Positions 17,481 through 46,619 of a stretch of DNA of 64,000 nucleotides are shown piece after piece (the stretch's first letter is position 1; the number at the start of each line of letters is the position of its first letter). Under the pieces are notes generated by a model, which worked only from the letters and a program-made list of their open reading frames with translations, was not told the origin of the DNA and made no database searches. The translations under genes were made by a program, and so were the position numbers. The DNA is from Peristeroidobacter soli (GTDB taxonomy: Bacteria; Pseudomonadota; Gammaproteobacteria; Steroidobacterales; Steroidobacteraceae), in assembly GCF_004138485.1 (NCBI RefSeq), contig NZ_RYEV01000004.1, positions 866,803 through 930,802 of the forward strand, written 5' to 3'.

Positions 17481-20400
17481 CTAATGCCACCACAGCGGCG
17501 GCGCGGGCCGCCGGGTTGGCCATTGCTCTTCCAAGGTGTCGCCCTGGTAAAGCACGCCGTTCTTCATCACGTACCGAATCGATTCGGTGTGACGAATGTC
17601 GTCGAGCGGATTCTGGTCCAGAATCAGCAGGTCGGCGAGCTTGCCGGGCTCGATGCTGCCGATATCCTGCGAGTATCCCAGCGCTTCGGCGCCACACATC
17701 GTCGCGGCTCGCAAAGCTTCGTGAGCCGTGAGGCCGCCGTCGGCGTAGGCCCAAAGATTCCAGTGATAGCCGAGGCCGGCGAAGTTGCCGTGACTGCCGA
17801 TGCAGACACGGCCGCCCGCGCGATGAATCGCCACCGCCGACTGCGCCAGTTGTGACGTGAACCGCTCATCGGGCGGTATCCATTGCGAACGTCGTTTGCG
17901 AGTCAAACCCTCGGCGGGATAGAAGCGGCGCAGCTTCGCATCGTCGTAGAGCGACGGGTTCTGATACCCCGGGCTCCAGCCCGAAGGCCCGCCATACGTT
18001 TCCAGGATGGCCGGCGTGTAGACGATGCCGGTCCGGCTGAAGAGTTGAATCACGTCGTCATGCACCGTGTAGGGCAACACGTGCTCGTTGCCTTGCATGC
18101 CATCGATCGCGTGCGTGATATCGAGGACGAGATCGCCGCCGCCTTCGGTGGTGAGCATCATGTTCAGCTGCCTGGCCGCTTCGATGATCCATTGGCGTTG
18201 CTGACGATTGCCGATCAGATAGGACTTGATGGTGCGAATGCCATAGTAATCCCGATAGCGACGGACGATTCTCAGGGCGTCGTCGAGCGACTGGATGTCG
18301 TTGGTTGGGAACGCCCCCGGACCGGTCGCGAAAGAACGATAGCCGAGCACTTCACCGGCCTCGATCAGATCTTCATACGCCAGCGGATCGACGGACACCG
18401 TCTGCGGATCGCGCCCCGTGGTGACGCCATATGCCAGGTAGTTCTGGAAAGGCCACGCCTGCATTTCGAATACACCGCGACGAAGCGCGAGCATGTGAGG
18501 ATGCAGATCGACGAACCCCGGGATCAGCGTCTTCCCTGCCACATCCACACGCGCGACCTTCTCTGGAAGCTGCAACGTGCCGCGCGGGCCGATGGCGGAG
18601 ATCCGGTTGTCGACGACCAGCACATCCGCGTCTTCGAGCACTTCGTCCGCCTTCATCGTAATGACTCGGGCACCGCTCAATACGACGGCGCCACGTGGAG
18701 TCGCTCTCGGCTTCTCGATTCGCAGTGCCAATGCATCTGGTTCCGCAGTCGTGACATTCGTCGCAGCACGAAACACCGTGGCGCCGAGCGTCCAGAGCGC
18801 TGTCGTCCCCGCTTTGTTCCAGGCGATGTCGTCGCTGCCGGCCTGATCCAACCGTCGCATGGGGATCTGCGCTGCCGCCACATCGACCACGAGCGGAGCA
18901 ATGCCCGTCCACGTCATGGGCAACACATACACTCGGCCGCGAACGTGCGCGAGAAGCTGCTCACCGTCCGGACTCAGCAGCACCATCGGCTGCATTTCCA
19001 TCGATCCTCCGCCGGAGCCCATCACAGGGACCTTCAACTCCACGACGGACCGACGATCGCTGCCATCGAGACGCATCGAGACCAGCCCCAGCCCCGACGA
19101 CAGATAGACCCGATCGGCCTCGGGCCCGAAATGAGGTCGCATCAAACCAGGCGCCGAGGTGACGACGTGCGTGTCACCGCCGTCCGAAGGCAGCCACGCA
19201 AGATCCATGGCCGCCGAAGCGCCAGGCGATACGCCACTTTCACTGGCCTCCTCCACATGCTCATCGACACCGGCGAGCGACATGTCCGCCGCGCCCCGCG
19301 AGAAATCGCCTTTCGACATGCGCAACGCCAGCACACGCGCGCCATCGGGCGACCACACGGGATCGCGATAATAGGCAGTGTCCTTGGTGAGACGAATGGC
19401 GCGACCCGAGCCCGAAGAACGAATCTTCCACAGCGCGCCGCCCTCGGTGCTGGTCCACGTTGCATAGACGATCCAGCGACCATCGGCCGACCAGGCCGGC
19501 TGATAGCCGCCTGCAGGACCGCTCGTCAACGGCTTCGGCGCGCCGTCGGGCAATGACTTCACATAGAGCTGGCCGAACGCGGTGAACGCGAGCGACTTCC
19601 CATCCGGCGACAGCGTCGGTCGCTGCACGATGCGGGCGACGACGGGTCCCTCCGGCACTCGACTCTGGGTTTGTAACGTCGGCCCGATGTCACGCGACAC
19701 CGACACGCTCATCGGAATGACGCGTGCCTCGCCGCTCGTCACGTCCACACTATGAATCTTGCCGTCGTACGCAGTAATGAGTCGCTTGCCATCGGGCGTG
19801 AACGCATAGCCAGGTAGCAGATCGCGATCCGGCTTCGAGGACTCTTGATCGTCACGTTGCACGCCCGCGATGAGCAGGCGCTCCTCGCCGGTGTGCAGGT
19901 CTCGAACCATCAAATTCGTGGACGCACGATTGCGCGTTCCATAGACCAGGTAGCGATTATCCGGAGACAGTACTGGCCGCAGGCCGCTGCCTGCCGCAGC
20001 CGTGACGTCCACCTCCTCTCCGGTTCTGCGGTCTCGCCGCCGCACCTGCCAGTACGGCATCGCCCTGGGCAGGCCCGCCTCATACGAGAAGTTCGCCAGG
20101 AAGCCGCGCGCAAAGGAGTAATACAGGTAACGGCCATCGCCCGATGCAACGGCGCCCATGGCGTTGTTCCAGGAATCCATCGACATACCCGGCGTGGGCT
20201 GGCTGCGAACGAGGGTCACGCCCTGACCGCCATCGCGATGATAGAGCCACAGCTCAAAGGAGCTCTGATAGGTGAACGGCTTGTGCCGCGAGACCAGGAT
20301 CTCCTTGCCGTTCGCCGCGAACGAGGGCGAAACGAAATGAGTCAGGGTCTCGGACGTCAACTTGCGCGCGTTCGTGCCATCGACATTCATCAACCAGACG

Positions 20401-20702
20401 TTCTCGGCGCCGCTGGCATCGCTGACGAAAACGATCTCCCGGCCATCCGGGGAGAAGCGAGGCTGCATGTCGTAGGGCAGGCCGTGCGTGAGCGCGGTCG
20501 CCTGCCCGCCCTCTATGGGCAAGGTATAGAGATCGCCGAGCAGATCGAAGACGATGGACCGCCCGTCGGGCGAGACATCGAGCGACATCCACGTGCCTTC
20601 CGTGGTCGTGAACGATATTTCACGCGCTTCGGCGTGCGCCGGAGCAAGAGCAACCCACAGGCAAAACGCCCCCCAAATCGCCGCTGGAGCTGAGCGAATC
20701 AT
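17481..20702 (-). CDS. Secreted TolB-propeller/amidohydrolase fusion (module I hydrolase)
   Basis: A 1073-residue exported protein. The signal peptide ends near APAHAEA. Residues 30-640 carry repeated WD40/PD40 (TolB-like) beta-propeller blades with recurring S-P-D-G-R/K turns (LSPDGKSLAFTA, WSADGRWIVYA). The C-terminal 400 residues form a metal-dependent amidohydrolase: H-P-H in GFVDLHPHMLAL, then a His in LDITHAIDGM, GSHGNFAGLGYHWNLW, and the terminal IEPGKLADLLILDQNPLDDI. Such fusions are annotated as imidazolonepropionase-like and probably act as peptidases or amidases outside the cytoplasm; the exact reaction is unknown. The position downstream of FecI-FecR-TBDR is repeated by different hydrolases in the next three modules, which argues that it digests what the receptor imports. 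Start ATG at 20702, with GAGG about eight bases upstream. Confidence 0.85.
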   Translation of the reverse strand: MIRSAPAAIWGAFCLWVALAPAHAEAREISFTTTEGTWMSLDVSPDGRSIVFDLLGDLYTLPIEGGQATALTHGLPYDMQPRFSPDGREIVFVSDASGAENVWLMNVDGTNARKLTSETLTHFVSPSFAANGKEILVSRHKPFTYQSSFELWLYHRDGGQGVTLVRSQPTPGMSMDSWNNAMGAVASGDGRYLYYSFARGFLANFSYEAGLPRAMPYWQVRRRDRRTGEEVDVTAAAGSGLRPVLSPDNRYLVYGTRNRASTNLMVRDLHTGEERLLIAGVQRDDQESSKPDRDLLPGYAFTPDGKRLITAYDGKIHSVDVTSGEARVIPMSVSVSRDIGPTLQTQSRVPEGPVVARIVQRPTLSPDGKSLAFTAFGQLYVKSLPDGAPKPLTSGPAGGYQPAWSADGRWIVYATWTSTEGGALWKIRSSGSGRAIRLTKDTAYYRDPVWSPDGARVLALRMSKGDFSRGAADMSLAGVDEHVEEASESGVSPGASAAMDLAWLPSDGGDTHVVTSAPGLMRPHFGPEADRVYLSSGLGLVSMRLDGSDRRSVVELKVPVMGSGGGSMEMQPMVLLSPDGEQLLAHVRGRVYVLPMTWTGIAPLVVDVAAAQIPMRRLDQAGSDDIAWNKAGTTALWTLGATVFRAATNVTTAEPDALALRIEKPRATPRGAVVLSGARVITMKADEVLEDADVLVVDNRISAIGPRGTLQLPEKVARVDVAGKTLIPGFVDLHPHMLALRRGVFEMQAWPFQNYLAYGVTTGRDPQTVSVDPLAYEDLIEAGEVLGYRSFATGPGAFPTNDIQSLDDALRIVRRYRDYYGIRTIKSYLIGNRQQRQWIIEAARQLNMMLTTEGGGDLVLDITHAIDGMQGNEHVLPYTVHDDVIQLFSRTGIVYTPAILETYGGPSGWSPGYQNPSLYDDAKLRRFYPAEGLTRKRRSQWIPPDERFTSQLAQSAVAIHRAGGRVCIGSHGNFAGLGYHWNLWAYADGGLTAHEALRAATMCGAEALGYSQDIGSIEPGKLADLLILDQNPLDDIRHTESIRYVMKNGVLYQGDTLEEQWPTRRPAPPLWWH

Positions 20703-20710
20703 GCTTGAAC

Positions 20711-20747
20711 CTCGCGTGAGAAGACCGCGAGACCGGGCCCGACCCGG
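20711..20747 (-). terminator. Tandem GC-rich hairpins at TBDR-hydrolase junction, module I
   Basis: Two adjacent inverted repeats: CTCGCG (20711-20716) with CGCGAG (20726-20731), and CCGGG (20733-20737) with CCCGG (20743-20747). They lie between the receptor stop (20786) and the hydrolase start (20702). No T-run follows, so this may be a partial terminator or an RNA-stability element. Confidence 0.35.
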
Positions 20748-20785
20748 CCTCGCCGCTAATTAAGACGATTGAGCCGACACCATCC

Positions 20786-23344
20786 TCACCAATGCCTGGA
20801 AATGCCGAAGCGCACGAAGCGCCCCACTGGCGAGTAATTGGTGGAATCGTAGGGATGGAAAATGGAGCTGCTGGTGTAGATCGAGTCGGGCTGGGCGTCG
20901 AACACGTTTTGCATCGACAGCATCAGTTCGATGTTCCGGAACAGCGAGGGGCCGTCCGGCACCTGATAGCGCGCCGTGAGATCCAGCGTCGTCATCGACG
21001 AAACCTCGCGGCTCGGCGTGATCTGCACGTCCTGCACTCCACCGACATAGTTGACGAAGGAACTGAGCGTCAGCGCGTCCAGCCCCCACACCACGCCGAC
21101 GTTGCCGCGCAGATGCGGTGGATTGAACACCGAACCGGACAGATCGACATACGGCTGCAGGCTGCTGAGCTTCTGCTTGCTGTCCATGTAGCTCGCGTAG
21201 CCCGTGAACGTCAGCGAGCCTCTGGTTTGCAAGTCCCACGAATACGCCACCGTCGCATCGACGCCGCGAATGTTTTGTTCGGCGACATTGGCCGTGCGGT
21301 TGTCGATGATGGCGACCACGTCCGCTGGATCGTAGGGCCGACCGAGCTGATTGAAGAACGTGCCACCGCTCGCCACCGCGGCGGCAATGGCGGCAGCTTT
21401 GTCCCCATCCGAGGGCGAGAGATTCACCAGATCTCGATAGATCGGATCGCTCAGCGAGCGCGCGGAATACGTGATGGGCGCGAGAATGCGATCGGTGTAG
21501 TCGATGTTGAAGTAACTCAACTCCACCTGCAGATTGCTGATGGCGCGCGGATGCAAGTCCAGCGTCGCCGACCAGGTCTTCGCGCGCTCGGGTTTCAATT
21601 CACGACCGCCGACCAGCATGTACAGCGCGCTGGCATTGGCCGGGTAGCCAGTGCCACCGTAAATCGAGGCGGGACGCACGACGATGTTGGCCTGGACGTA
21701 AGTCTGATAGATGCTCGGCGCACGAAACGAGCGGCCCCACGATGCCTTGAGATCGAAATCCGGCGTGGGTGAATAGATCAGGCCGAGTTTGGGCGTCGTA
21801 ACGTCGCCGATGTCCGGGTAGTCTTCATAGCGAACCGCGGCGCTCGCACTGAGCGTCTGGAACAACGGCAGATTCAACTCGGCGAACGCGAAGTAAGTCT
21901 CCTGCTCCTTTGCCTTGGCGAAGGTGTTGGTCTGCCGCATCGCCTGCTCGCGATAACCGCCACCCACCGCCGCCCGCACCATGCCCGCCGGCAGCGCGAA
22001 CAGCGGGCCATCGGCGTTGATCTCGACCGACGCTGTCTTGTTGTTGAAGCCAATCGTCGCCGCAGAAATGATGGCGTTGTTGAGATAGGCTTCCTGATAG
22101 AAGTCGGCGTAGTCGTGACCAACCATGGTCGACAGCGACGTTCGCCAATCACCGCCCAGCTCCAGCTTCAGCGAGGGCGCGAGCACGAAAGACTCGGCCT
22201 GCGAATCCTGATTGCCGCCGTTCAATAGATAACTGCCACGCAGATCGTTCGCGTAGGTGTAGTAGCTCGTGCGCTCGGCATAGAAGCCGTCGAACTCGAA
22301 CGACAGGTTCGATGCCAGCTGCTGGTGACCGCTGACCAGCACGCTCTGGTTCTCGAGCTCCGGCATCAGGCCCAGACCGGGCGCCCGGTACTTCGCATAA
22401 CTGCGCTGACTGGCCTCGATGGCGTTGGTGTTCTGATACTCGGCCGCGACCAGGATGCCGCCGCCAGCCCACGTCGTGCCGGACGTGAGTCCGTACTGTT
22501 GTTGCTCGTTGCCGCCCTCAGTCGAGACGCCGAAGCGAGCGCTCGCATCCAGGCCGTCGTAGTCCCGCTTCAGGATGATATTGGCGACACCCACGACCGC
22601 GTCGGCACCGTACAGCGCGGAGCTGCCATCGGCGACGATCTCGATGCGCTCGACGGCGCCGAAGGGAATCGAAGAAATATCGACGGAGTTGCTGCTGGAG
22701 GCATAAGCGAGGCGATGGCCATTCAACAGCGTCAAGGTCGCTTGATTGCCGACACCGCGCAGGTTCAGCGTCGATGCGCCGGTGAGATTGCCCGAACCGG
22801 CCGCCGTCGAACCCAAGCCAAAGCCCGTGCCGGGATTCTGGCCGCCGCTGAAATTCTGCGGAATCGTGCGTAACACTTCGCGCAAGGAATTCTGGCCGGC
22901 ATCCAGCATTTGTTCCTGCGTGCGCTTGACGACAGGCGAAGAGCTCTCGGCGCCGCGAATGTGGCTGCCGGTGACGACGATCTCCTGAAGCTCGATCGGT
23001 GCGCTGTCGCCGCGCGGTGAATCCGTTGCAGGAGCGGACGGCGGCACGATGGTGACGGTCTTCTCGTCCAGATACATGTACGTGAGCCCGGTGCCGCTGA
23101 GAATCTTCTGCAGAGCTTCGTCAGCGGTGACATCGCCTGACACGCCTTCGCTCAAACGCTGACCGACGATCTCGGTGCGATAGACCACCTGCAGATCGCA
23201 GACTCTGGCGAGCGCCTGGAGCGCGGGCTCCAGCGGTTGCGCCGGAATATGAGTCTGCTTGCGAATCGCCGCGCGCACTTCCTGCGCGACCGAAAGACTC
23301 ACCAGGGAAACACAGATCGCTGTAGCAACCGCCGTCACGCGCAT
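20786..23344 (-). CDS. TonB-dependent transducer-receptor with STN domain (module I)
   Basis: An 852-residue receptor. After the signal peptide (MRVTAVATAICVSLVSLSVA) comes an STN domain at about 25-105 (IPAQPLEPALQALARV, then GDVTADEALQKILSGTGL), the part that contacts FecR in the periplasm. The TonB box is LQEIVVTGSHIRG. The plug carries LRGVGNQATLTLLNGHRLA and VEIVADGSSALYGADAVVGV, and the barrel ends in VGRFVRFGISRHW. The ATG at 23344 is preferred over an in-frame ATG at 23407 because GGGGAG sits five bases upstream. It stands 100 bp downstream of FecR and 83 bp upstream of the amidohydrolase. The ligand is unknown; the neighbouring hydrolase suggests a peptide or other amide compound. 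Confidence 0.9.
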   Translation of the reverse strand: MRVTAVATAICVSLVSLSVAQEVRAAIRKQTHIPAQPLEPALQALARVCDLQVVYRTEIVGQRLSEGVSGDVTADEALQKILSGTGLTYMYLDEKTVTIVPPSAPATDSPRGDSAPIELQEIVVTGSHIRGAESSSPVVKRTQEQMLDAGQNSLREVLRTIPQNFSGGQNPGTGFGLGSTAAGSGNLTGASTLNLRGVGNQATLTLLNGHRLAYASSSNSVDISSIPFGAVERIEIVADGSSALYGADAVVGVANIILKRDYDGLDASARFGVSTEGGNEQQQYGLTSGTTWAGGGILVAAEYQNTNAIEASQRSYAKYRAPGLGLMPELENQSVLVSGHQQLASNLSFEFDGFYAERTSYYTYANDLRGSYLLNGGNQDSQAESFVLAPSLKLELGGDWRTSLSTMVGHDYADFYQEAYLNNAIISAATIGFNNKTASVEINADGPLFALPAGMVRAAVGGGYREQAMRQTNTFAKAKEQETYFAFAELNLPLFQTLSASAAVRYEDYPDIGDVTTPKLGLIYSPTPDFDLKASWGRSFRAPSIYQTYVQANIVVRPASIYGGTGYPANASALYMLVGGRELKPERAKTWSATLDLHPRAISNLQVELSYFNIDYTDRILAPITYSARSLSDPIYRDLVNLSPSDGDKAAAIAAAVASGGTFFNQLGRPYDPADVVAIIDNRTANVAEQNIRGVDATVAYSWDLQTRGSLTFTGYASYMDSKQKLSSLQPYVDLSGSVFNPPHLRGNVGVVWGLDALTLSSFVNYVGGVQDVQITPSREVSSMTTLDLTARYQVPDGPSLFRNIELMLSMQNVFDAQPDSIYTSSSIFHPYDSTNYSPVGRFVRFGISRHW

Positions 23345-23444
23345 GAAAACTCCCCAGCCTTGTATCAGGCTTGCAAGTGCCGTCGAGCGAGATGCTGACG
23401 ACTTCATGCACGGGTAGAGCAGGCGTGAACGAAAAGTGGTCACT

Positions 23445-24497
23445 TCAGTGGGAGAAAATCTCGATGCCGGAGGCCGATTCTTCGACGCGCAGATCCAGTT
23501 GCGCGCGCAGGAACCGCACCAGCGAGGCAGGATCGGTCGATGAGAACGTGCCGCTCACCAGAAAGCTGTCGAGCCGGGTATCGCGAACCAGCAGACGTCG
23601 TTCGTTATAGCGATTGAACTGTTCCGCCACGACCGTCAGCGGTGTCCCGCTGAAAACCAGACGCCGCTCGCGCCATGCCGTGGCATCTTCGACATTTACG
23701 GGTAACGCGCGCGGACGAGCGCTTTCGCGGACGATGGTTTGCTCACCGGCGGAAACAAACGTTCCGGACGTAGGCTCCAGCACCGGAGTAAGCGTCGTGG
23801 AAACATCCTGCGTCGGATCGGCGATCACGGCAACGCGACCTTCGAGCACCGTGACGACGGTGCCACGACGACTCCGGTCGACGTCGAACTGCGTACCAAC
23901 GGCACGAATGCGCGTATCGCCGCTGTACACGACGAAAGGCCGGGCGGCGTCCTTCTCGACTTTGAACAGCGCCTGTCCTTCGAGCAGGATCACATCCCGC
24001 CGCGCTTCGGCGTAGCGCACGCGCACGCGCGAACGGGCGTTGATCTCGACAATCGAGCCATCGGGCAACGAGATCGCGCGCTGCTCTCCCACGCCGGTTT
24101 CGTAGGTCATGCCGCGGGTGGCCTGCAACCACACGAATGCCCCGATCACAAAGACCAGCAGCGCCGCGGCCGCCGCGATGAGCCACGGCCTGCCCTGCTT
24201 CACTGGCCGGACACGATCGATCCTTCGCTCCAACGGCACGACATTGCCGCCGGCCCGGGCGAGCTCGATCAACGCATCGGCGCTCGTGGCCTGAGCCGCA
24301 TCGACTTTCGATGCGTCCTGCCACAGCGGAAACATCTCCAGATAGGCGCGCACGTGCTCCGGTGACTTGCGCAGCCAGGCATCGAACGCACGTCGCGCAT
24401 TCCGATCGTCGTCGCCACAACTGAATTCGACGAACCACTGCGCGGCCTCATCGATGATCTGCGCATTGCGTCCCGCCACTGGGTCCTGCTTGCTCAT
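23445..24497 (-). CDS. FecR-family anti-sigma regulator (module I)
   Basis: A 350-residue FecR protein. A cytoplasmic DUF4880 helical domain (about 12-65, ARRAFDAWLRKSPEHVRAYLE) binds the sigma factor. One membrane helix lies at about 104-124 (PWLIAAAAALLVFVIGAF). The periplasmic FecR domain follows (YETGVGEQRAISLPDGSIVE, then FVVYSGDTRIRAVGTQFDV), and a C-terminal DUF4974/STN-like segment (VVAEQFNRYNERRLLVRD) closes the protein. It is expected to hold the adjacent sigma factor until the module I receptor reports bound ligand. The ATG at 24497 has TAAGGA upstream and lies eight bases after the sigma stop codon. It is less similar to the FecR proteins of modules II and III than those two are to each other. 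Confidence 0.9.
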   Translation of the reverse strand: MSKQDPVAGRNAQIIDEAAQWFVEFSCGDDDRNARRAFDAWLRKSPEHVRAYLEMFPLWQDASKVDAAQATSADALIELARAGGNVVPLERRIDRVRPVKQGRPWLIAAAAALLVFVIGAFVWLQATRGMTYETGVGEQRAISLPDGSIVEINARSRVRVRYAEARRDVILLEGQALFKVEKDAARPFVVYSGDTRIRAVGTQFDVDRSRRGTVVTVLEGRVAVIADPTQDVSTTLTPVLEPTSGTFVSAGEQTIVRESARPRALPVNVEDATAWRERRLVFSGTPLTVVAEQFNRYNERRLLVRDTRLDSFLVSGTFSSTDPASLVRFLRAQLDLRVEESASGIEIFSH

Positions 24498-24505
24498 GGG
24501 TTTCC

Positions 24506-25030
24506 TTACTCCTGCGCCGGCATGCGCTGTCGGCAATGGGACAGCGCCTGGGCCAGATATTTCTTGGCCATGCCGCGCGACATCCCGAGGTGCGAGGCGA
24601 TCTCCTCGAGCGAGAAGCCGTCGCGACGATGCAGCACCAGCACCGAGCGCGCCTTGGGAGAGAGTTGCCTCATCGCCTGCTCCAGCTGAGCGACACGTTG
24701 CTGGGTCTCGAGCTGCATCGCCGGGTCTTCGACGGCGGACTGCATCTCGAACAGCGCGTCCAGCATTTCGGTGGGCTCCGGATTGGCGGCTTGGCGCAGG
24801 GCATGCTGATGCAAGACATGGCTCGCGATGGTGATCAGGTAGGCCTGGGGATTGCGGATGGTTTCGTGCTGCTCGACGCGCAACAGGCGCAGGAACACCT
24901 CCTGAACCAGATCGGGAAGATCGGCGGCCGCGTTACGCAGCCGCGAGGCGAGATAGCGACGCAGGTTCTGGCCGTGCTGCTTTTCGACGGCAGTGACGAA
25001 AACCTGCTTATCGGACGTGGACAAGGGCAC
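24506..25030 (-). CDS. FecI-type ECF sigma factor (module I)
   Basis: A 174-residue ECF sigma factor. Region 2 covers about residues 20-85 (LRRYLASRLRNAAADLPDLVQE, FLRLLRVEQHETIRNPQAYL), and region 4 about 115-168 with a helix-turn-helix (FSLEEIASHLGMSRGMAKKYL). It should transcribe the receptor gene two genes downstream once released by FecR. The only plausible start is GTG at 25028-25030, with no good Shine-Dalgarno. That codon lies inside one arm of an 11-bp inverted repeat whose other arm is upstream in the leader, which may limit translation. Transcription is probably also driven by an iron or general promoter not recognised here. Confidence 0.88.
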   Translation of the reverse strand: MPLSTSDKQVFVTAVEKQHGQNLRRYLASRLRNAAADLPDLVQEVFLRLLRVEQHETIRNPQAYLITIASHVLHQHALRQAANPEPTEMLDALFEMQSAVEDPAMQLETQQRVAQLEQAMRQLSPKARSVLVLHRRDGFSLEEIASHLGMSRGMAKKYLAQALSHCRQRMPAQE

Positions 25031-28426: not shown

Positions 28427-28451
28427 GGGGCGCGGCATCACGCCGCGCCCC
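28427..28451 (-). terminator. Rho-independent-type terminator after module II receptor
   Basis: GGGGCGCGGC (28427-28436) and GCCGCGCCCC (28442-28451) form a perfect 10-bp stem with a 5-nt loop. On the minus strand the stem is followed by TTGCTTTTCC. It lies 12 bp past the receptor stop (28464) and before the protease start (28395), so it should stop or reduce transcription from receptor into protease. Confidence 0.7.
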
Positions 28452-31109: not shown

Positions 31110-31191
31110 TTCACGACTCCCCAGTGGCTCTATGTGTGTGGCCATCGGGGTACCGTGACGACCCGGACAACAAAATCCCTGAGTGTCGCGA

Positions 31192-39103: not shown

Positions 39104-39674
39104 GCTCGTACTCACGCTGCTTCGACTCGTCCTCCGGTGGCTTGGTCGGGGCGCTCCGGCCCTGCATGCCGCCAAACAGAAAGTTCGCGAGCAGTTCCAT
39201 GCCGCGTGCCAGATGTTTCTCGATGGTGCCGTGATTGACGCCCATGCGGTCGGCCGTGTCGCGCGTCGAGAGCTCTTCGACCCGGCGCAGCCAGACGACC
39301 TCGCGGCACTTCGGCGGCAAAGAGTCGAATGCATGCGCCATCCGCTGCAACTCCTGGCGGGCGCCGGTGCGGCGTTCGGGAGAGGCTTCATCGACGAGCA
39401 GGTTCAAGGCGTCGATATCGCCGGTGGCCTCGATGGAGACGATGCGTCCCCGGCGCACCCGATCCGTCATGAGATTGCGGGCGGTCGTGAACAGGAAGGC
39501 TTTGGGTGCCGCCGGCCGCGCTCTCAGGGCCGACTCATAAACGCGCACATAGATGTCCTGGCGGAGGTCGTGGACCTCATCCGGCTTGGGCCAGGAGCGC
39601 GCCAGGTAGCGCACCAATGACTCCTCGTGCACGAGAATCTCGCGCGCGAACCAAGTGTCCAGGGAGTCATCCAT
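39090..39674 (-). CDS. FecI-type ECF sigma factor (module III)
   Basis: A 194-residue ECF sigma factor, region 2 at about 5-85 (DTWFAREILVHEESLVRYLA, VHDLRQDIYVRVYES) and region 4 at about 115-172 (LPPKCREVVWLRRVEELST, then DTADRMGVNHGTIEKHLARG). It is the clear paralogue of the module II sigma factor, but the recognition helix differs (NHGTIEKHL against SEKTVESHV), so the two may prefer different promoters. The start is ATG at 39674; GGGG is only a base away and forms part of a 9-bp inverted repeat in the leader. It overlaps FecR by 14 bp. Confidence 0.9.
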   Translation of the reverse strand: MDDSLDTWFAREILVHEESLVRYLARSWPKPDEVHDLRQDIYVRVYESALRARPAAPKAFLFTTARNLMTDRVRRGRIVSIEATGDIDALNLLVDEASPERRTGARQELQRMAHAFDSLPPKCREVVWLRRVEELSTRDTADRMGVNHGTIEKHLARGMELLANFLFGGMQGRSAPTKPPEDESKQREYEHGQQ

Positions 39675-39760: not shown

Positions 39761-41809
39761 TCACCAGATCTTCACGCGCTGGTCGGGCGGCAGGTACAGC
39801 TTGTCCGTGGGCTTGATGTCGAACGCCTGGTACCACTCATCCATGTTACGCACCGCTCCGTTCACGCGGAACTTCGAGGGGCTGTGTGGATCCGACAACA
39901 CCTGCACACGCAGCGCCTCGTCGCGGTACTTGGCACGCCAGATCTGCGCCCACGACAGGAAGAAGCGTTGCTCGCCCGTGAGCCCGTCGATGACCGGTGC
40001 CGGCTTGCCGTGCAACGACAGCTTGTACGCATGCAAGGACATGCTGAGCCCGCCCAGATCGCCGATGTTCTCGCCGATGGTGATCGCACCGTTGACGTTC
40101 AATCCCGGCAGCGCTTCGAACGACGAATACTGCGCGATCAGCTTCTTGGTCTGTTCGGTAAACGCGGCGGCGTCCGCCTCGGTCCACCAGTCCTCGAGAC
40201 TGCCGTCGGCGGCGAACTTGCGGCCCTGGTCGTCGAAGCCGTGGCCGATCTCGTGTCCGATCACCGCACCGATGCCACCGTAATTCACCGCGTCGTCCGC
40301 GTTCGGATCGAAGAACGGCGGCTGCAGGATGGCGGCCGGGAAGACGATCTCGTTGTTCAGCGGATTGTAGTAAGCGTTCACCCGCTGCGGCGTCATGTAC
40401 CACTCATTGCGATCGACAGGCTGATCGAGCCGCGCGATGTCCCGCCGCCAATCCCACAGCTGCGCACGCTTGATGTTGCCGATCACGTCGCCGCGACGGA
40501 CCTCGAGACCTGAGTAGTCCTTCCATTCATCGGGATAACCGATCTTGGTCACGAACGTGCCGAGCTTCTCGAGCGCACGCTTGCGGGTGTCGTCGCCGAG
40601 CCAGCTCGACTGCTCCAATCGCTCTTTCAACGACGCGCGCAGGTTCGCGACCAGCGCCTGCATCTTCGCTTTCGACTCGGGCGGAAAGTGTTTCTCGACG
40701 TACATGCGCCCGACCAGCTCACCGACGCCTTTGTTCGCCTCGGCGATCGCGCGCTTCCAACGATCGCGCTGTACCGGCTGGCCTCTGACGACCTTGCCGT
40801 TGAACGCGAACTGCGCGTCGTCGAATCGCTTGGGCAGATAGGCGGCCTGATTGTTCAGCGTGTGAAACGTGAGGTAGGCCTGCAACGTATCCAGCGAAGC
40901 GCGATTGACGAGTTGAGCCGCGTCGCGAATGGCGGTCGTGGGGCCCAACACGAAGTTCTCACGCGTCGGGATTTCCTTCGCTTGCAAATAAGCCTGCCAA
41001 TCGAAGCCCGGCGCATAGGCCAGCAGCTGCGCCTTGGTGTAAGGATTGTAGGTGGCGTCCGCGTCGCGCAGCCGCTCGATGGGCCAGTAAACCTGAGCGA
41101 GCGATGTTTCGAATGCGAGGATCGCCTTGGCCTTGGCCGCCGCATCGCTCACGCCGCCGAGCGTCAGCATCTGTTCGATATAGGCGAGATACTGCCCGCG
41201 CACTTCCTTCAGCTTGGCATCGTCCTTCAAATAATAGTCGCGATTGGGCAAGCCCAGACCCGACTGGCCGATCTCCAGCGAATACTTGTCGGGACGCTTC
41301 GCATCGGGTGTGGCGAAGATCTTGAACACCGACGGCATGCCCGTGGTGCCGAACAAAGTGGCGATGTCCTTCTTGTCCTTCGCGGCCTGGATGCGCGACA
41401 GATCCGCCGCGATGGGCTCGAGCCCCGCCTTCTCGATGCCGGCCTCATCCATGAAGCTCGCGTAATAGTCCCCCACCTGCTGAGACGCCGAACCTTGCGC
41501 GCCGGGCGCGGCGACGGCGGCCTCGATCAACGAGCGCAACTGAACTTCGATGTCGTCGGCGATTTTCACGAACGGGCCGTAGGACGTGCGGTCCTCCGGA
41601 ATCTGGAAGCTCGACAGCCATTTGCCGCCGGCATGGGCGAAGAAATCGTCGCCGGCCGGCACGGCCGGATCGGCCGCCGAGCGGTCCAGACCGAACGCAC
41701 CGATGGCGGGCTTGGGCGCGGACTGGTTGGGACCCTCGCTGACACCACAGGCGGCAACGAGAACGGCGGCGGGCAGCAGTGCCAGCCAGTGCTTGCTGAT
41801 CTGAACCAT
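39761..41809 (-). CDS. M13-family metallopeptidase lipoprotein (neprilysin/PepO-like, module IV hydrolase)
   Basis: A 682-residue zinc endopeptidase. A lipoprotein signal (LALLPAAVLVAACGVSEG, with lipobox cysteine C21) anchors it to a membrane facing the periplasm. The zinc motif is H519-E-I-G-H523 in AVIGHEIGHGFDDQGR; the third ligand is E580 in ITIGENIGDLGG. NAYYNPLNNEIVFPAAIL is the substrate-binding segment of the family, and the protein ends VKIW like many M13 enzymes. The length is normal for the family, which cleaves peptides of up to about 40 residues on the amino side of hydrophobic residues. It lies 235 bp after the module IV receptor, separated by two hairpins. In this position it should trim peptides taken in by that receptor. 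No missing active-site residue was seen. Confidence 0.92.
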   Translation of the reverse strand: MVQISKHWLALLPAAVLVAACGVSEGPNQSAPKPAIGAFGLDRSAADPAVPAGDDFFAHAGGKWLSSFQIPEDRTSYGPFVKIADDIEVQLRSLIEAAVAAPGAQGSASQQVGDYYASFMDEAGIEKAGLEPIAADLSRIQAAKDKKDIATLFGTTGMPSVFKIFATPDAKRPDKYSLEIGQSGLGLPNRDYYLKDDAKLKEVRGQYLAYIEQMLTLGGVSDAAAKAKAILAFETSLAQVYWPIERLRDADATYNPYTKAQLLAYAPGFDWQAYLQAKEIPTRENFVLGPTTAIRDAAQLVNRASLDTLQAYLTFHTLNNQAAYLPKRFDDAQFAFNGKVVRGQPVQRDRWKRAIAEANKGVGELVGRMYVEKHFPPESKAKMQALVANLRASLKERLEQSSWLGDDTRKRALEKLGTFVTKIGYPDEWKDYSGLEVRRGDVIGNIKRAQLWDWRRDIARLDQPVDRNEWYMTPQRVNAYYNPLNNEIVFPAAILQPPFFDPNADDAVNYGGIGAVIGHEIGHGFDDQGRKFAADGSLEDWWTEADAAAFTEQTKKLIAQYSSFEALPGLNVNGAITIGENIGDLGGLSMSLHAYKLSLHGKPAPVIDGLTGEQRFFLSWAQIWRAKYRDEALRVQVLSDPHSPSKFRVNGAVRNMDEWYQAFDIKPTDKLYLPPDQRVKIW

Positions 41810-41853
41810 CGAGGCTATGGATCCTTTCGAGGAGGAAGGGCGGGTTTGAGCAA

Positions 41854-41907
41854 GGCGGCGTCCCTGCCGCCCGTGCTACAGGCCGGGCCGTCGCAGCGGC
41901 CCGGCCT
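41854..41907 (-). terminator. Two hairpins between module IV receptor and M13 peptidase
   Basis: GGCGGC (41854-41859) pairs with GCCGCC (41866-41871), followed on the minus strand by TTGCTC. AGGCCGGGCC (41880-41889) pairs with GGCCCGGCCT (41898-41907), a perfect 10-bp stem, followed on the plus strand by TTGTC. They lie downstream of the receptor stop (42045) and upstream of the peptidase start (41809). This is probably a terminator or attenuator. Confidence 0.55.
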
Positions 41908-42044
41908 TTGTCGGTCGCGGAGGGGGAAACCAACGCGATGACGACGACTGGTAAGACGATCCACGCCCCAAAACCCCTACCCAGCGCGCGAATCGACTTC
42001 GCTCTATAGAGCGGCTGGCGCGCGAAAATGGTTACCCGCGAGGC

Positions 42045-45000
42045 TCAAAAATTCTTCTTGACGCTGAGCCAGTAACGCGCCAGACGCGCGTCGCCAAAGG
42101 TGCTGTAGTAGCCGACGGTGAACAGATTGGCGTCGAACGGCGGTTCCTGGTCGAACAGATTCTTCACGCCCAGCGTGATCTGGGTGCCGTCGAGCAGCGA
42201 CGATCGAGCGGCGAAGCGATAGGCGGCGAACACATCGTGATACATCTGGCTCGACACGCGCCCGCCCCGTCCCTGCCGCTGATTGACCGCAGCAGTGGTG
42301 CCAGCCGTGTATGAATCGAAGTAACGAGCGGTCCACCCGGCGGACCAGTTGCCCAGGCTCCAGTTGACGCCGCCATTGGCCTTCAACTTGGGTGGATTCG
42401 AGCTGGTGACGCCGACATAGTCGAGCATCGCGCCCTGCGGCGTGAACTGCTGCAGAAAGTGGGTCTGCCGCGTGGCCAGGATGAAAGGCGCGAAGCGGCC
42501 GAACGCGCTGTCGAACTCATAGTCGATCTGCAAGTCGTACGCTTCCACTTCGGCCTTCGCGACGTTGAGCAACGTCGCATCGATGGCGGTGATCGGCCCG
42601 GCCCAGCCCGCCGGATCGTCGGGCAGATTCGGGCCACGCGTCACCCGCTCCGGAAAGAAGTTGAGAATCGTGTCGGTCGACGGCGCGGAGATGTTGTTGG
42701 TCTTGCGAATCTTGGTGTAGTCGAGCGACAGGCGCAGGCCGGGCACGAAGGCCGGCGTGAAAATCGCACCCAATGACCAGCTCTCGGAATCTTCCGGCTT
42801 CAGGTCGGGATTGCCGCCCGACGTATAAATAAGTGTGCCCGCGACGGTATTCCCCCGCAGCGGATCGACACCGCCGGAACTCACGATCGGCGCCGAGGGA
42901 ACCACCTGCCCCACGCCTGGTGGCAAGAACCCCGTGCCGTAGCTCATGCGCAGCGTGAGATCGTGAAGTGGCTGATACAACAGCGCGATCGTGGGATCGG
43001 TCGATGCCACGTCGTTGGTATGGCGCACGATCGGTGCGGTAGGCATGCCGTCGGCGCCCAACGCGACTCGCGCCGTCGAACCGCGAATCGTGTAATCGTC
43101 ACGGCGCACCGCCAGCTGCAACTCCAGCGCTTCGATGCCGGTCATTCGATTGCGCGACGAGACCCAAGGCAGACGCAACTCGGCATACGCACTACGCACC
43201 GACTGCGAGCGGCTTGGATACAAAAATGCAGTGAACGTACCGCCCACTCCGGCAGCATTGAGACCGTTTCCCAGCAGTTCCTCTCGATACTCGCCGAGTA
43301 CCGTCAGCTGCATGTTGCCGCCGGGCAGCTCCCACAACGGCCCCGCGAAACGCAGACTGGTGTCACGCAAAGTCACATCGTAATGCCCCGTGCCCGGCGG
43401 CCCGTCGTACAAGTACGAGGCGACGTTGATGCCGGCATCGCGAAACACGTCGATGGTGCCGGCATTCACTGCCGCCGCGAGCGTCGTGGGCAGCCCGGCA
43501 AAGACATTCAGAAAGTCGAGCTCGGAGCGGGCCCAGGTGTAATCGAGCCCGGCCACCCAGTTGCGCGGCAGTTTATAAATCAAGCCGCCGGACAGACCGC
43601 GCGTCTCGGTTTCGGATCTCAAGGTGAGCAACTTCGACGTGAGCGGCACCTGCACCAGGATGTCTTGTTGAAACGGATTCGCAGGCGCGGCCGCCGGCAG
43701 CCTGAAACTGGTCAGCGTCTGGCCGACCGTGGCATCCATCAGGAATGTCGCGACACTCTGCGAAGCACTCGCCTGAGCGAACAAGCTCAGGTGGTCGGTC
43801 ACTTCCTGCCGCACCGTCAACGACAGCGATTTGAGCTGCGGGTCCTGTCCCATGCGAGTCTCGTTGCCGCCGATCGTATGCACGGTGTCAGGCGGCGCGA
43901 TGTTATAGCTACCGGCCTGTGCGGCGAGCGCCGCGCCACCGTCGGAAGCAACTCCTGCATAGCCGACGGGAACATGGGTGATCGACGAGTTGAGCGGGGT
44001 GCCGTTGTCGAGCACCAGACTGGAGCCATTGGCGCTGCGAATGTTCGTGGTCGAACCGAGCACCGGCACACCGCTCGCGTCCAGCGCGCCGTAGTTATTG
44101 TTTGTGTTGGCGAGAATGGCCGCGCGGCCGCGTTCCCAATAACGATACTCGCCGTAGCGCGGCTGCTCGCCTTCCATGTAGCTGCCCGCGATCAGCACGT
44201 TGGTCTTGCCATTCATCAAGTTGAAGCCAGCGGCGGCATCCACTCGTTGATTGGGTGCGTCGGCGGAAAAGCTGTCTTCGTACTTCACGCCGATCTCGGC
44301 GCCTTGGTAATCACGACGCATGATCACGTTGATGACACCGCCGGTCGCGCTGCCGCCGTAGATGCCGGACGCCGTCGTGGGCAGCACTTCGATACGCTCG
44401 ATGGCCGCGAGCGGAATGCCGTTGAGATCGGATTGCGCCGAGTCGCCAAAGTTGGGAAAGCCCGGCTGACGGCGGCCATCGACCAGAATCAGCGTCTGCG
44501 AAGCGCCCAGGCCACGCAGGTTGATCTGCGAATTGTTGGCGAAGGAGCCCAGCGCCGACTGACTGAGGGTCGCGGCCTGCGAGTTCATGGTCAGGCGCGA
44601 TTTGAGAAAGTCCTCGACGCTGCCCGCGCCCGAATGCTCGATCTGACTCTGATCGAAAATCGTATAGGGCTGCGGATCGTCGCGGCTGCGCCGGATGTCC
44701 ATGTTCAGCACGCGCGAGCCGGTGACGAGCACTTCGGGAATGCCTCTCACGTCCGCGCCGGTGCGCTCTGCAAACACCATCACGGTGCGCTCGTCGATGA
44801 AGCGCAGCTTCAATCCGGTGCCCGTCAGCAGGCGCTCGAACGCTGCCTGCGTGGTGAATTCGCCCTTGATCGCCGGAGCGTTGAGTCCCTCGACCAGCGG
44901 CGGATCGAACAGAACATTGATGCTCGCCTGGCTGCCTACGCTACGAAGCGAGACGGCGAGCGATTGTGACGGCAGATCGAATTGTGTCGTCGCCTGAGCT

Positions 45001-45071
45001 TCCGCGGCGGACGCATTCAAACAAATGACTTGCGCCGCGAGCGCGGCGCCCCACCAGAATCGTTGTTGCAT
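42045..45071 (-). CDS. TonB-dependent transducer-receptor with STN domain (module IV)
   Basis: A 1008-residue receptor, the largest of the five. Signal peptide ends near NASAAEA. STN is at about 28-105 (FDLPSQSLAVSLRSVGSQ, KGEFTTQAAFERLLTGTGL). The TonB box reads IPEVLVTGSRVLN. The plug includes INLRGLGASQTLILVDGRR and IEVLPTTASGIYGGSATGG, and the barrel ends ARYWLSVKKNF. Plug wording differs from the other modules (VDGRR rather than LNGRR), so this receptor is from another branch and not a recent copy of II or III. ATG at 45071 with no strong Shine-Dalgarno. It lies 70 bp after FecR. Ligand unknown; the M13 neighbour suggests oligopeptides. Confidence 0.9.
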   Translation of the reverse strand: MQQRFWWGAALAAQVICLNASAAEAQATTQFDLPSQSLAVSLRSVGSQASINVLFDPPLVEGLNAPAIKGEFTTQAAFERLLTGTGLKLRFIDERTVMVFAERTGADVRGIPEVLVTGSRVLNMDIRRSRDDPQPYTIFDQSQIEHSGAGSVEDFLKSRLTMNSQAATLSQSALGSFANNSQINLRGLGASQTLILVDGRRQPGFPNFGDSAQSDLNGIPLAAIERIEVLPTTASGIYGGSATGGVINVIMRRDYQGAEIGVKYEDSFSADAPNQRVDAAAGFNLMNGKTNVLIAGSYMEGEQPRYGEYRYWERGRAAILANTNNNYGALDASGVPVLGSTTNIRSANGSSLVLDNGTPLNSSITHVPVGYAGVASDGGAALAAQAGSYNIAPPDTVHTIGGNETRMGQDPQLKSLSLTVRQEVTDHLSLFAQASASQSVATFLMDATVGQTLTSFRLPAAAPANPFQQDILVQVPLTSKLLTLRSETETRGLSGGLIYKLPRNWVAGLDYTWARSELDFLNVFAGLPTTLAAAVNAGTIDVFRDAGINVASYLYDGPPGTGHYDVTLRDTSLRFAGPLWELPGGNMQLTVLGEYREELLGNGLNAAGVGGTFTAFLYPSRSQSVRSAYAELRLPWVSSRNRMTGIEALELQLAVRRDDYTIRGSTARVALGADGMPTAPIVRHTNDVASTDPTIALLYQPLHDLTLRMSYGTGFLPPGVGQVVPSAPIVSSGGVDPLRGNTVAGTLIYTSGGNPDLKPEDSESWSLGAIFTPAFVPGLRLSLDYTKIRKTNNISAPSTDTILNFFPERVTRGPNLPDDPAGWAGPITAIDATLLNVAKAEVEAYDLQIDYEFDSAFGRFAPFILATRQTHFLQQFTPQGAMLDYVGVTSSNPPKLKANGGVNWSLGNWSAGWTARYFDSYTAGTTAAVNQRQGRGGRVSSQMYHDVFAAYRFAARSSLLDGTQITLGVKNLFDQEPPFDANLFTVGYYSTFGDARLARYWLSVKKNF

Positions 45072-45141
45072 CTTGATTTCGCCAGTGATCCTACGCGCCC
45101 CATACGCGAGGTTCTTGGCTTTTTAGACGCGACGATTCCAC

Positions 45142-46128
45142 TCAATCCTCATCAGAAACTTTCGCGGCCGCTGCGATCACGATACGACGCGACTCATTGA
45201 TCACGTGCAACCGGTACACCTCACCGACCGCGCGCGCGAAGCTTGCCGAATCTCCGGCACGGAAGATGCCGCTGATCGGGATGCCCGCGACCCTCTCATC
45301 GTCGATGACCAGCTCGATCGCACTGTATCGATTCATCTCCGCCACCGCATCGCCGAGCCGGGTCTTGTCCAGAATCACTTCGCCCCGTCGCCACGCGGTC
45401 ACCGCTTCGATCGGCGGCTGATCGAGCCGCGGCGTTTCCGCCTTCGCGACTCTGAGGCGTTGACCTGGCATCAACACCGTCTTCTCCCTGGGGCCGGCGG
45501 TCTCAACGGCCGGCGTCACCGCGACCTTGCCTTCGATCAAGGTCACCGTCACCTGTTGCTCCTGGCGCCGAACGACAAAGGAGGTGCCCAGTGCGACCAC
45601 CTGCTGATCGCCCGCCGTCACGATGAAGGGCCGCTCCGGATTCCTGGCGACATCGAACAGCGCCTCGCCGCTGTCCAGCCGGACGCGGCGCTCGGTGACA
45701 CTCTCATCCACGCGCAGTCGCGTACTCGTGTTCAACAGGATTCTGGAACCATCCTCCAGGGTCAGCAGTCGCTGCTCGCCCACGCTGGTCGTGACCGCCG
45801 GGCTCCACAGGTAGGCGAACACGCCAGCGATCAACATCACCATCGCAGCTGCCGCAGCCACGCCTGACCAGACGAATCGGCGTCGCGGTCGCGCGTCGAA
45901 ACGATCCACTCGCCGTGGCGAAGCGGCCGCAAAGACACTGCCACCAATGTCCCAAGCCTCGGTGGCCAACTCGAAAGCACGCGCATTGACGGGATCGGCC
46001 GCCAGCCAGCGCCGCAAGCCCGCCTGCAACTCTTGTGACTGACTCGCGCCGTGCAGCCTCGCCACCCACGCCGCAGCCTCCGCTCGCACGGCAGCCGGCA
46101 TTGGCGCTTGCGATGATTCCGTGTTCAT
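45142..46128 (-). CDS. FecR-family anti-sigma regulator (module IV)
   Basis: A 328-residue FecR protein: DUF4880 at about 12-60 (EAAAWVARLHGASQSQELQ, NARAFELATEAWDIGG), membrane helix at about 86-108 (WSGVAAAAAMVMLIAGVFAY), FecR domain (TSVGEQRLLTLEDGSRILL, FIVTAGDQQVVALGTSFVV), and a short C-terminal segment (AVAEMNRYSAIELVIDDERV). Its start overlaps the sigma stop by four bases (ATGA), the tightest coupling in the four modules. It should restrain the module IV sigma factor until the receptor is occupied. The FecR domain wording (VGEQR) is nearer to module I than to II and III. Confidence 0.9.
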   Translation of the reverse strand: MNTESSQAPMPAAVRAEAAAWVARLHGASQSQELQAGLRRWLAADPVNARAFELATEAWDIGGSVFAAASPRRVDRFDARPRRRFVWSGVAAAAAMVMLIAGVFAYLWSPAVTTSVGEQRLLTLEDGSRILLNTSTRLRVDESVTERRVRLDSGEALFDVARNPERPFIVTAGDQQVVALGTSFVVRRQEQQVTVTLIEGKVAVTPAVETAGPREKTVLMPGQRLRVAKAETPRLDQPPIEAVTAWRRGEVILDKTRLGDAVAEMNRYSAIELVIDDERVAGIPISGIFRAGDSASFARAVGEVYRLHVINESRRIVIAAAAKVSDED

Positions 46129-46619
46129 AACCGTTCCATTGCATCCATGATCGAAAGCACCGCTCTGGCGATGTGTTTTTCCACCGCGCTCACACTGATC
46201 TCGAAGTGCGCGGCGATGTAAGCGCAGCTGTAACCCTCGACCCGGTGCATGTAGAAGATCTCGCGCGTTCTCGGGCCCAGCTCATCCAACACCGTCGATA
46301 CCTTTGCCAGGCGCTGCGCGGCCGCCAGCTCCTGCTCCGGCGAAGGGCGCAGATCGACCAGCACCAGATTGTCGATCGACTCGTCCGCGTACAGCTCGCG
46401 GTGCTCCTTGCGATGCAGGTCGATCGACAGATTGAGCACGGTGCGACTGAGGAAAGCGCTGCGCTTCTGCACCTCCTCGTTCTGGCAATACACGTGCAGC
46501 CGGAGGAACGCCTCTTGAATCAGATCGTCGGCATCGTCACGGTTGCGCCCCTGCCGCCGCAGGAGACTGCGCAGCTGACGGATGCATTGCTTGAAGCCTT
46601 CCATGCCGCCAAGATGCAT
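46125..46619 (-). CDS. FecI-type ECF sigma factor (module IV)
   Basis: A 164-residue ECF sigma factor: region 2 at about 10-75 (LRSLLRRQGRNRDDADDLIQ, FLRLHVYCQNEEVQKRSAFL) and region 4 at about 105-160 (LGPRTREIFYMHRVEGYS, then YIAAHFEISVSAVEKHIARA). The start is uncertain: ATG at 46619 is used here, while an in-frame GTG at 46643 and an ATG at 46604 are alternatives, none with a good Shine-Dalgarno. The gene overlaps FecR by four bases. The region upstream (46690-46725) is rich in GGCC-type inverted repeats, and the divergent small gene starts at 46791. Confidence 0.87.
   Translation of the reverse strand: MHLGGMEGFKQCIRQLRSLLRRQGRNRDDADDLIQEAFLRLHVYCQNEEVQKRSAFLSRTVLNLSIDLHRKEHRELYADESIDNLVLVDLRPSPEQELAAAQRLAKVSTVLDELGPRTREIFYMHRVEGYSCAYIAAHFEISVSAVEKHIARAVLSIMDAMERL

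Follow-up and report, generated by a model that had tools for sequence, protein, structure and literature searches.

Do four signalling receptors that lie side by side, each followed by a different exported enzyme, belong to fixed units, or have their parts been combined anew? The question is raised by a 64,000-nucleotide stretch of DNA from Peristeroidobacter soli (NCBI RefSeq assembly GCF_004138485.1, contig NZ_RYEV01000004.1, positions 866,803 to 930,802; hereafter the window). It carries four modules, each composed of genes for a FecI-like extracytoplasmic function (ECF) sigma factor, a FecR anti-sigma factor, a TonB-dependent receptor (TBDR) with an STN signalling domain, and a hydrolase. 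The original prediction, made from the letters alone, described the order sigma factor, anti-sigma factor, STN receptor and hydrolase four times in a row on one strand, and all 16 genes were found in that order on the minus strand; the FecI, FecR and STN receptor anatomy is present in every module, with a hydrolase behind each receptor, and the four hydrolase classes that it named (amidohydrolase with TolB propeller, S8, S9 and M13) were recovered by Pfam. Its left edge for the array, 17481, stands, whereas its right edge, 46619, falls within the FecI open reading frame (ORF), which is predicted to start at 46643. In transcription order, from 46643 down to 17481, the modules are referred to as A to D, and their enzymes are M13, S9, S8 and TolB/amidohydrolase, respectively.

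We consider it probable, from comparisons of sequence, that these are modular cell-surface signalling (CSS) units that sense, import and hydrolyse a ligand, and whose blocks have been exchanged at two junctions. The components are ordinary, and the evolutionary pattern is the unexpected part. Judging from what is known of the families, the receptor would bind and import a ligand from outside, its periplasmic STN domain would signal to the FecR partner, FecR would free or activate FecI, and FecI would turn on the receptor gene and the exported enzyme gene behind it. FecR-STN signalling and the proteolysis of FecR are described in PMC9249621, and the contact between STN and the anti-sigma factor in PMC11637429. 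The proposal divides each unit into three blocks: a sensor cassette (FecI-FecR-STN) that would be inherited as one, a TonB box-plug-barrel block, and the hydrolase. The putative exchange junctions are the linker between STN and the TonB box and the gap between the receptor and enzyme genes. Exchange of the sensor cassette would rewire regulation with ligand binding untouched, and exchange of the enzyme would alter what happens to the ligand.

The evidence for these blocks comes from the source genome (G000, with the window on its contig C3) and from other genomes of the Steroidobacter genus group to which it belongs, among them G002 and G008. A whole-genome search of G000 gave 90 STN hits, and removal of 7 without an adjacent FecI and FecR pair (FecIR) and of 2 receptor pieces shorter than 500 aa left 81 modules. 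Each was cut into sigma factor, FecR, STN, plug and barrel, and the pairwise identities of these pieces were correlated. The parts of the sensor cassette co-vary (sigma-FecR 0.62, sigma-STN 0.45, FecR-STN 0.42 (p 0.001)), as do plug and barrel (0.83); in the same 81 modules, the identity of the STN domain is uncorrelated with that of the plug (r 0.029, p 0.18) or of the barrel (r 0.027, p 0.15) to which it is joined. Among 23 pairs of barrels with more than 42% identity, the regulators are unrelated in 20 and kept in 3, and among 43 pairs of sigma factors with more than 50% identity, the barrels are less than 30% identical in 38 and more than 42% identical in 3. FastTree trees contain 32 regulator clades and 41 plug-barrel clades with support of at least 95; 2 are common to both trees, and 30 of the 32 are contradicted. 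An approximately unbiased test on a 22-module subset rejects the module A regulators as sisters of those that accompany its barrel sister, C1:1622624 (p 8.6e-10). Replication in G008, where 46 contigs were read and 39 modules with a FecIR pair were found, gave coefficients of -0.035 for STN-plug, -0.034 for STN-barrel, 0.478 for FecR-STN and 0.885 for plug-barrel. A pattern of block exchange is well supported by these comparisons in two genomes, G000 and G008.

The class of the enzyme is distributed in a related manner. When the downstream genes are labelled as peptidase or other, the label changes 11 times on the plug-barrel tree, as compared to 21.6 +- 2.0 changes in 200 shuffles (minimum 17), and 23 times on the regulator tree, as compared to 21.7 +- 2.0 changes in shuffled labels. 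On these trees, enzyme class appears linked to the barrel and without link to the regulator.

Individual pairs of loci place the junctions at the level of DNA. Locus G008:C258 and the 1008-1021 kb region of G000:C3 are 86% identical over 6297 bp, a stretch that opens with the TonB box (DEVVVTG, identical in sequence to the Ton box of Bt1763; PMC7782687) and continues through an S9 gene into an S8 gene. Upstream of the box there is no DNA alignment, the proteins are 46% (STN), 28% (sigma factor) and 30% (FecR) identical, and FecIR is in tandem in one locus and divergent in the other. The reverse case is formed by G008:C172 and G000:C4:962 kb, which are 72.6% identical over 1976 bp from FecI to approximately the end of STN and do not match thereafter; their sigma factors are 89% and their FecR proteins up to 70% identical, and their enzymes differ in class. 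In the array itself, the DNA similarity between module A and C1:1622624 is confined to 44749..42054 (71.3% over 2743 bp), a span that opens five codons ahead of the TonB box and closes just short of the end of the receptor gene. Between module D and its relative at C5:645252, the alignment takes in FecI, a portion of FecR and the receptor but leaves out the enzyme, a pattern consistent with exchange at the receptor-enzyme junction. A breakpoint profile was drawn for 11 of the 23 close pairs, those with a TonB box found by pattern in both receptors (61 of the 81 receptors have one). Pair alignments run at 20-40% identity before the TonB box and at 60-90% from it, and in 9 swapped pairs identity climbs from 42% to 74% at the box.

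Several observations weigh against this interpretation. Two pairs that keep their regulators climb at the TonB box too (from 28% to 80%), since a variable linker meets a conserved plug there, and an identity step at this point proves nothing by itself. When ten further genomes of the class (45 STN receptors in 50 loci, 35 modules with FecIR) are pooled with their orthologs, the STN-barrel r is 0.60, and in this control all 6 barrel pairs with at least 70% identity keep their regulators. Whole modules are similarly prominent among the six G008 modules with a barrel at least 75% identical to one in G000, as five keep both regulators and enzyme and one is swapped. The blocks are not separated in G228 (n 8; STN-barrel r 0.36, p 0.18; sigma-barrel 0.50, p 0.014), and G178 (n 8) has no close barrel pairs; a sample of 8 is too small to decide in either genome. 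Single G008 junctions could be misjoins, because G008 is a 940-contig assembly. On the side of the enzymes, amidohydrolase labels follow neither tree (11 changes on the barrel tree, as compared to 11.2 +- 0.9), distances between S9 enzymes are uncorrelated with those between the receptors that precede them (r 0.058, p 0.18, n 25), and non-peptidase partners exist (11 beta-lactamase-fold enzymes, 2 FAD oxidoreductases, VIT1 and PhoD). Lastly, amidohydrolases bind metal through HxH, H, H and D; in the module D enzyme, HPH is present and the usual GTD position reads GSH in the alignment, so that one metal ligand may be absent. The inherited modules detected in the ten-genome control indicate that the method sees whole inheritance where it exists. 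The same control holds 7 barrel pairs at 43-62% identity, of which 1 keeps its regulators, 4 have unrelated regulators and 2 lie between, and on such pairs exchange may extend beyond the genus.

What might these modules bind? Peptides, or compounds resembling them, are the most likely ligands, because peptidase families dominate among the downstream enzymes and because receptors of the same clade lie within a lasso-peptide cluster and beside an orphan lasso isopeptidase. Within the genome, the Transglut_core3 domain of B-type lasso proteins is limited to two sites on C2 and does not occur in the window (C3). At C2:1049533, a FecI-FecR-TBDR-S9 module, whose S9 enzyme matches the lasso isopeptidase AtxE2 (E 4.3e-63), adjoins lasso C (Asn_synthase) and B genes. 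In this lasso-type cluster (G000:C2:1045695-1058341, L022) the module faces the C and B genes, and a 30-aa ORF upstream of B (L022:11513-11605), picked out by eye, might encode the precursor. A second Asn_synthase and Transglut_core3 pair is present at G000:C2:1398055 (L339), where the nearest STN hit is ~70 kb off. The module at C5:645252 (G000:C5:641405-654057, L061) has an AtxE2-like enzyme (E 2e-128), and the 12.6 kb around it contain no lasso genes, with ABC-2 transporter and SGL genes there instead. Its receptor (50% identical) and sigma factor (61%) are the nearest kin of those of module D; the receptors of modules B, C and D fall in a supported 18-row FastTree clade with both lasso-linked receptors, and the module A regulators fall in a 100% five-row set with the regulators of the lasso module.

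Given these AtxE2-like kin, peptide natural products must be taken seriously as ligands in place of protein digests. In known isopeptidase lasso clusters, a TonB transporter occurs together with a sigma/anti-sigma pair (PMC9266682), and the hypothesis of a siderophore-like role is repeated in PMC11006600. The array is like the clusters for astexin, sphingopyxin, benenodin and rubrinodin in its combination of FecI-FecR-TBDR with an S9 enzyme, and two enzymes of the genome match AtxE2. It would be conceivable that the modules scavenge, importing the lasso peptides and similar compounds of neighbours for their enzymes to open or digest, and both AtxE2-like modules (one with lasso genes adjoining and one with none), together with the kinship of modules A to D just described, speak for such a role. 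We regard it as a genuine possibility but not the expected one, since unlike those clusters the window has no lasso B gene and the S9 enzyme of module B is not AtxE2-like. As a lasso isopeptidase, the module B enzyme was rejected: the 9 PDB matches that it has with E<=0.001 do not include AtxE2, and it is 20% identical to the enzyme of the lasso locus. In addition, M13, S8 and amidohydrolase enzymes are not known to us to act on lasso peptides.

A second alternative keeps each receptor with one peptide class and a stably paired digesting enzyme, in the manner of a polysaccharide utilization locus (PUL) for peptides. The leaning of the original prediction toward peptides is borne out on the side of the partners, as peptidases are the commonest genes downstream of the 90 STN rows (26 S9, 3 S8, 2 GGT, and one each of M13, M19 and tricorn-like S41). 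Stable pairing would also account for the hydrolase found behind 49 of 66 tandem modules, for barrel clades that predict whether the enzyme is a peptidase or not, and for the five G008 modules with G000 counterparts for every block, the enzyme among them. The class-by-class pairing of receptor and enzyme that had been predicted did not hold up: of the 17 barrel pairs with more than 42% identity and a label on both sides, 5 share an enzyme class, so that close receptors are often followed by different enzymes. There is a looser link between receptor and enzyme at barrel identities above 30% (50 of 112 pairs share a class, as compared to 402 of 2080, or 19%, of all labelled pairs). The closest relative of the module A receptor (63% barrel identity) has an S9 enzyme behind it and not M13. 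In the receptor tree, A is sister to an S9-followed receptor, D is sister to the receptor with the AtxE2-like S9, and B and C are sisters despite S9 and S8 downstream, respectively. The pairings of A and D did not recur among the 30 and 20 loci retrieved for their respective receptor families. The 30 loci of the module A family have M13 once (the window), S9 8 times, TolB-amidohydrolase 3 times, beta-lactamase-fold enzymes twice, S8 twice, genes outside these classes 9 times and no gene on the strand 5 times; the 20 loci of the module D family have S9 12 times, TolB-amidohydrolase once (the window), other genes 4 times, and none or a cut-off gene 3 times.

The enzymes viewed from their own relatives give a similar picture. 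If the predicted pairing were general, hydrolases of these families would be expected beside such receptors in related genomes; for M13, FecIR-TBDR lies directly upstream in 0 of 109 other locus records (some loci appear twice; 7 records have less than 600 bp upstream and some others ~1-1.4 kb). Six Massilia/Telluria loci read TBDR-M13-M13, with no FecI or FecR found, and in three Phenylobacterium loci a TBDR lies ~1.2 kb upstream of M13. Kin of enzymes that belong to separate modules in the window adjoin each other elsewhere, in M13-S8, S9-S8 and M13-S9 order. An S8 relative comes after M13 in G001, G010, G011 and at G000:C1:1.518 Mb, where no receptor adjoins; the best match of the module C S8 enzyme sits after S9 in a TBDR-S9-S8 row (S9-S8 at G000:C3:1008646 and G008:C258); and after the closest M13 (78% identity, G000:C8:343 kb) comes S9, with a divergent FecIR-TBDR set nearby. 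This adjacency hints at one shared substrate for the window enzymes, not four. Duplication of a FecIR-TBDR unit between an S9 and an S8 gene would fit the arrangement, and the ~70% DNA identity of FecI and FecR between modules B and C. A pattern scan of the genome's contigs with S8 gave 30 pattern matches and no relative among them. Taken with the mixed partners of close receptors, these arrangements make stable one-to-one pairing unlikely.

Modules of this kind are abundant in the genome. The 90 STN rows comprise 66 tandem sigma-FecR-TBDR arrangements, 17 with divergent FecIR and 7 with neither, so that FecIR lies beside 83 of them, and in 77 of the 90 a same-strand gene that is neither regulator nor receptor follows within 400 bp. 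The downstream labels are S9 (26), beta-lactamase-fold (11), amidohydrolase (7), TolB-amidohydrolase (5), esterase (5), S8 (3), GGT (2), sulfatase or sulfatase-modifying (2), FAD oxidoreductase (2), M13, M19, PhoD and tricorn-like S41 (1 each) and none (23). Labels were assigned by Pfam to 44 of the 77 genes (40 and the four window enzymes) and by sequence cluster to the remainder; L019, labelled S9 by its cluster, gave a PD40 match only. With a hydrolase as the next gene in 49 of the 66 tandem modules (a count that excludes 2 FAD oxidoreductases and 1 sulfatase-modifying gene), an ordinary iron or siderophore CSS with chance neighbours appears very unlikely, even though the FecI/FecR/STN anatomy is the classic one for siderophores (PMC9249621).

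The four-part array is likewise not alone. Consecutive same-strand STN pairs 1.5-12 kb apart number 20, whereas 90 sites placed at random 1000 times gave 4.3 on average (maximum 10). At least four STN hits in a row arise in 13 of the 1000 placements; the genome contains such a run twice, once with 5 hits and once with 4, the latter in the window. The suggestion that such an array may not have been described as a unit loses its force, as tandem FecIR-TBDR arrays were found elsewhere in the same genome, in G002 and in G228, those in G002 mostly without an enzyme of the scored classes. The G228 array (G228:C6:1190000-1282000, L319-L323) belongs to a genome of the same phylum and another class. 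The candidate view of the window as a special four-part peptide array was discarded in light of the many further modules and arrays in the genome. STN counts in the genus are 90 here, at least 150 in G008 (218 candidates) and 1-26 in the other 12 genomes, some of which are incomplete; the highest count among 199 genomes of the phylum is 23, with the best 32 candidates per genome scored. Large ECF sets occur elsewhere, as in an uncultured genome of 5.99 Mb with 90 sigma genes (PMC5006271). In G000, one receptor gene (C3:1245326 to ~1248330) is in pieces of 138 and 860 aa, with two STN hits 0.5 kb apart. G023, a genome of ~4.0 Mb from the same family, gave 216 and 324 first-look receptor candidates, of which the best 22 and 27 were scored, and many of its loci have FecR upstream of the receptor candidates.

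A last alternative, that nothing was exchanged and that whole modules were duplicated, after which FecI, FecR and STN diverged fast together under selection against cross-talk, would be compatible with plausible insulation selection, with the co-variation of these three parts and with a linker that is variable anyway, but it is highly improbable because the regulators of close barrel pairs are near background (sigma 0.286 as compared to 0.263, FecR 0.322 to 0.303, STN 0.295 to 0.268), their nearest kin sit on other barrels, the reverse case keeps the regulators and changes the barrel, and similarity ends at the junction between loci that are 86% identical beyond it and differ in FecIR orientation.

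The features of the array are listed in Table 1. Gene models were obtained with a simple codon-usage caller, and starts and some small genes may be wrong. With the predicted starts, FecI and FecR overlap by 4-31 bp, the gap from TBDR to hydrolase is 68-235 bp, and that from each enzyme to the next FecI is 86-118 bp. All four FecI proteins have sigma regions 2 and 4 by Pfam, and each FecR has a FecR domain and a candidate transmembrane (TM) helix (top hydropathy peak 1.74-2.73). The STN domains of modules A to D score 40.5, 27.9, 25.5 and 36.1 bits against the Pfam cut-off of 28.4, which leaves B and C slightly below, and all four are above it in the genome search; a TonB box is visible in the array receptors alongside STN, plug and barrel. 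Export is predicted by eye from signal peptides on the S9, S8 and TolB-amidohydrolase enzymes and from a lipobox-like VAAC on M13. Two sigma-70 promoter scans gave 0 and 1 sites, as compared to shuffle means of 2.9 and 2.5, and terminator-like sites number 11, as compared to 12.4 +- 4.2, and 16, as compared to 9.7 +- 3.1. The hairpin that separates the receptor and S8 genes of module C might curb read-through into S8, although such a scan is no evidence of function.

Table 1. Genes and elements of the four-module array, with positions in the window.
Feature	Position	Strand	Basis and remarks
Module A FecI-like ECF sigma factor	46125..46643	-	Pfam Sigma70_r2 and Sigma70_r4_2
Module A FecR anti-sigma factor, TM-like peak 89-107	45142..46128	-	FecR and DUF4880; hydropathy
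Module A STN-plug-barrel TonB receptor	42045..45071	-	Pfam STN, Plug, TonB_dep_Rec
Module A TonB box EVLVTG, putative exchange point	44718..44735	-	Position counted from translation
Module A M13 metallopeptidase	39761..41809	-	Peptidase_M13_N and Peptidase_M13; motifs HEIGH, NAYY, GENIGD; lipobox-like N-terminus
Module B FecI	39090..39674	-	Pfam; 70.5% DNA identity over 387 bp with module C FecI
Module B FecR	38030..39103	-	Pfam; 70.7% DNA identity over 627 bp with module C FecR
Module B STN TonB receptor	35330..37942	-	Pfam
Module B S9 prolyl-oligopeptidase-family enzyme	32949..35261	-	Pfam; GQSNGG motif
Module C FecI	32219..32830	-	Pfam
Module C FecR	31192..32238	-	Pfam
Module C STN TonB receptor	28464..31145	-	Pfam
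Terminator-like hairpin between module C receptor and S8	28427..28451	-	Consensus scan; 11 bp stem, T-rich tail
Module C S8 subtilase	25132..28395	-	Pfam; GTSCATP serine motif
Module D FecI	24506..25030	-	Pfam
Module D FecR	23445..24536	-	Pfam
Module D STN TonB receptor	20786..23443	-	Pfam; 50% identical to C5:645252 receptor
Module D TolB-propeller and amidohydrolase	17481..20702	-	Pfam PD40, Amidohydro_1

Active-site motifs can be recognized in the M13 and S9 enzymes, and with less certainty in S8 and the amidohydrolase. HExxH, ExxxD and NAxY are the active-site motifs of M13 peptidases, and all three are present in the module A enzyme (HEIGH at 519, the GENIGD region at 580 and NAYY at 478). 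The S9 enzyme has a Ser-Asp-His triad by motif (GQSNGG at 609, HGDLDP and GEGH). In the S8 enzyme, the serine is in GTSCATP, the histidine is probably in GGHSSAVAG, and the aspartate is not fixed, the Pfam match starting from profile position 53. Elsewhere in the window, a FecI-like gene at the left edge (2-526) is by position the sigma factor of the neighbouring module C3:862789, in which the receptor is followed by an FAD oxidoreductase. A Ser/Thr kinase with TPR repeats (11446-14762) is divergent from an ECF sigma factor (Sigma70_ECF), and an autotransporter-like protein of 3516 aa with PATR repeats in 11 stretches (49852-60402) precedes a gene that encodes a TPS secretion domain and extends to the window edge (60531-63998).

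The array resembles the FecI/FecR/FecA system in its sigma factor, anti-sigma factor and STN receptor, in the fecI-fecR overlap and in the receptor gene behind them. Unlike that system, it has a hydrolase gene after the receptor, FecIR lies beside 83 of 90 STN rows in one genome, and the sensor cassette has apparently been swapped at the TonB box; in the classic fec locus, the genes after the receptor encode an iron ABC transporter. Sus/PUL receptors adjoin degradative enzymes. The Sus/PUL systems of Bacteroidota that use an ECF sigma/anti-sigma pair are also similar in that the STN receptor signals to the anti-sigma factor (PMC7782687), and dissimilar in that no SusD match was found by Pfam in the 16 array genes, whose enzymes are of peptidase or amidohydrolase families. 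The closest parallel to the proposed join is man-made: in a PupB/PupA chimera joined after the first 86 residues, sensing occurred via the barrel and signalling via the grafted domain (Koster 1994, via PMC9249621). One receptor's signalling domain on another's barrel thus keeps the ligand of the barrel and the wiring of the donor, and the same kind of join appears here in natural paralogs. In the open-licence literature, the titles and abstract starts among the matches listed showed no study of a natural swap at this junction, and PMC11444679, in the part available, covers FpvA regions and not signalling-domain exchange.

Exchange of sensor, receptor and enzyme blocks would bear on how these systems are understood. 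It is tempting, though rather doubtful, to view tandem arrays as the birthplace of new sensor/receptor/enzyme combinations, arising by unequal exchange between neighbours, with FecI-FecR-STN as a transferable cassette and the TonB box as its natural splice point, and yielding for these soil bacteria a rapidly changing repertoire with which to detect and consume foreign peptide natural products. CSS systems are usually viewed as fixed trios of sigma factor, anti-sigma factor and receptor; if nature swaps their sensor half at the TonB box, the ligand would be told by the barrel, and little would be told by the kinship of the regulators. A design rule may also be read from the exchange point, in keeping with the PupB/PupA chimera: it is where a receptor could be joined to a different FecI/FecR pair. 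With ~80 modules in one genome, most of them with an enzyme that hints at the ligand, this organism would offer a large set of candidate ligands.

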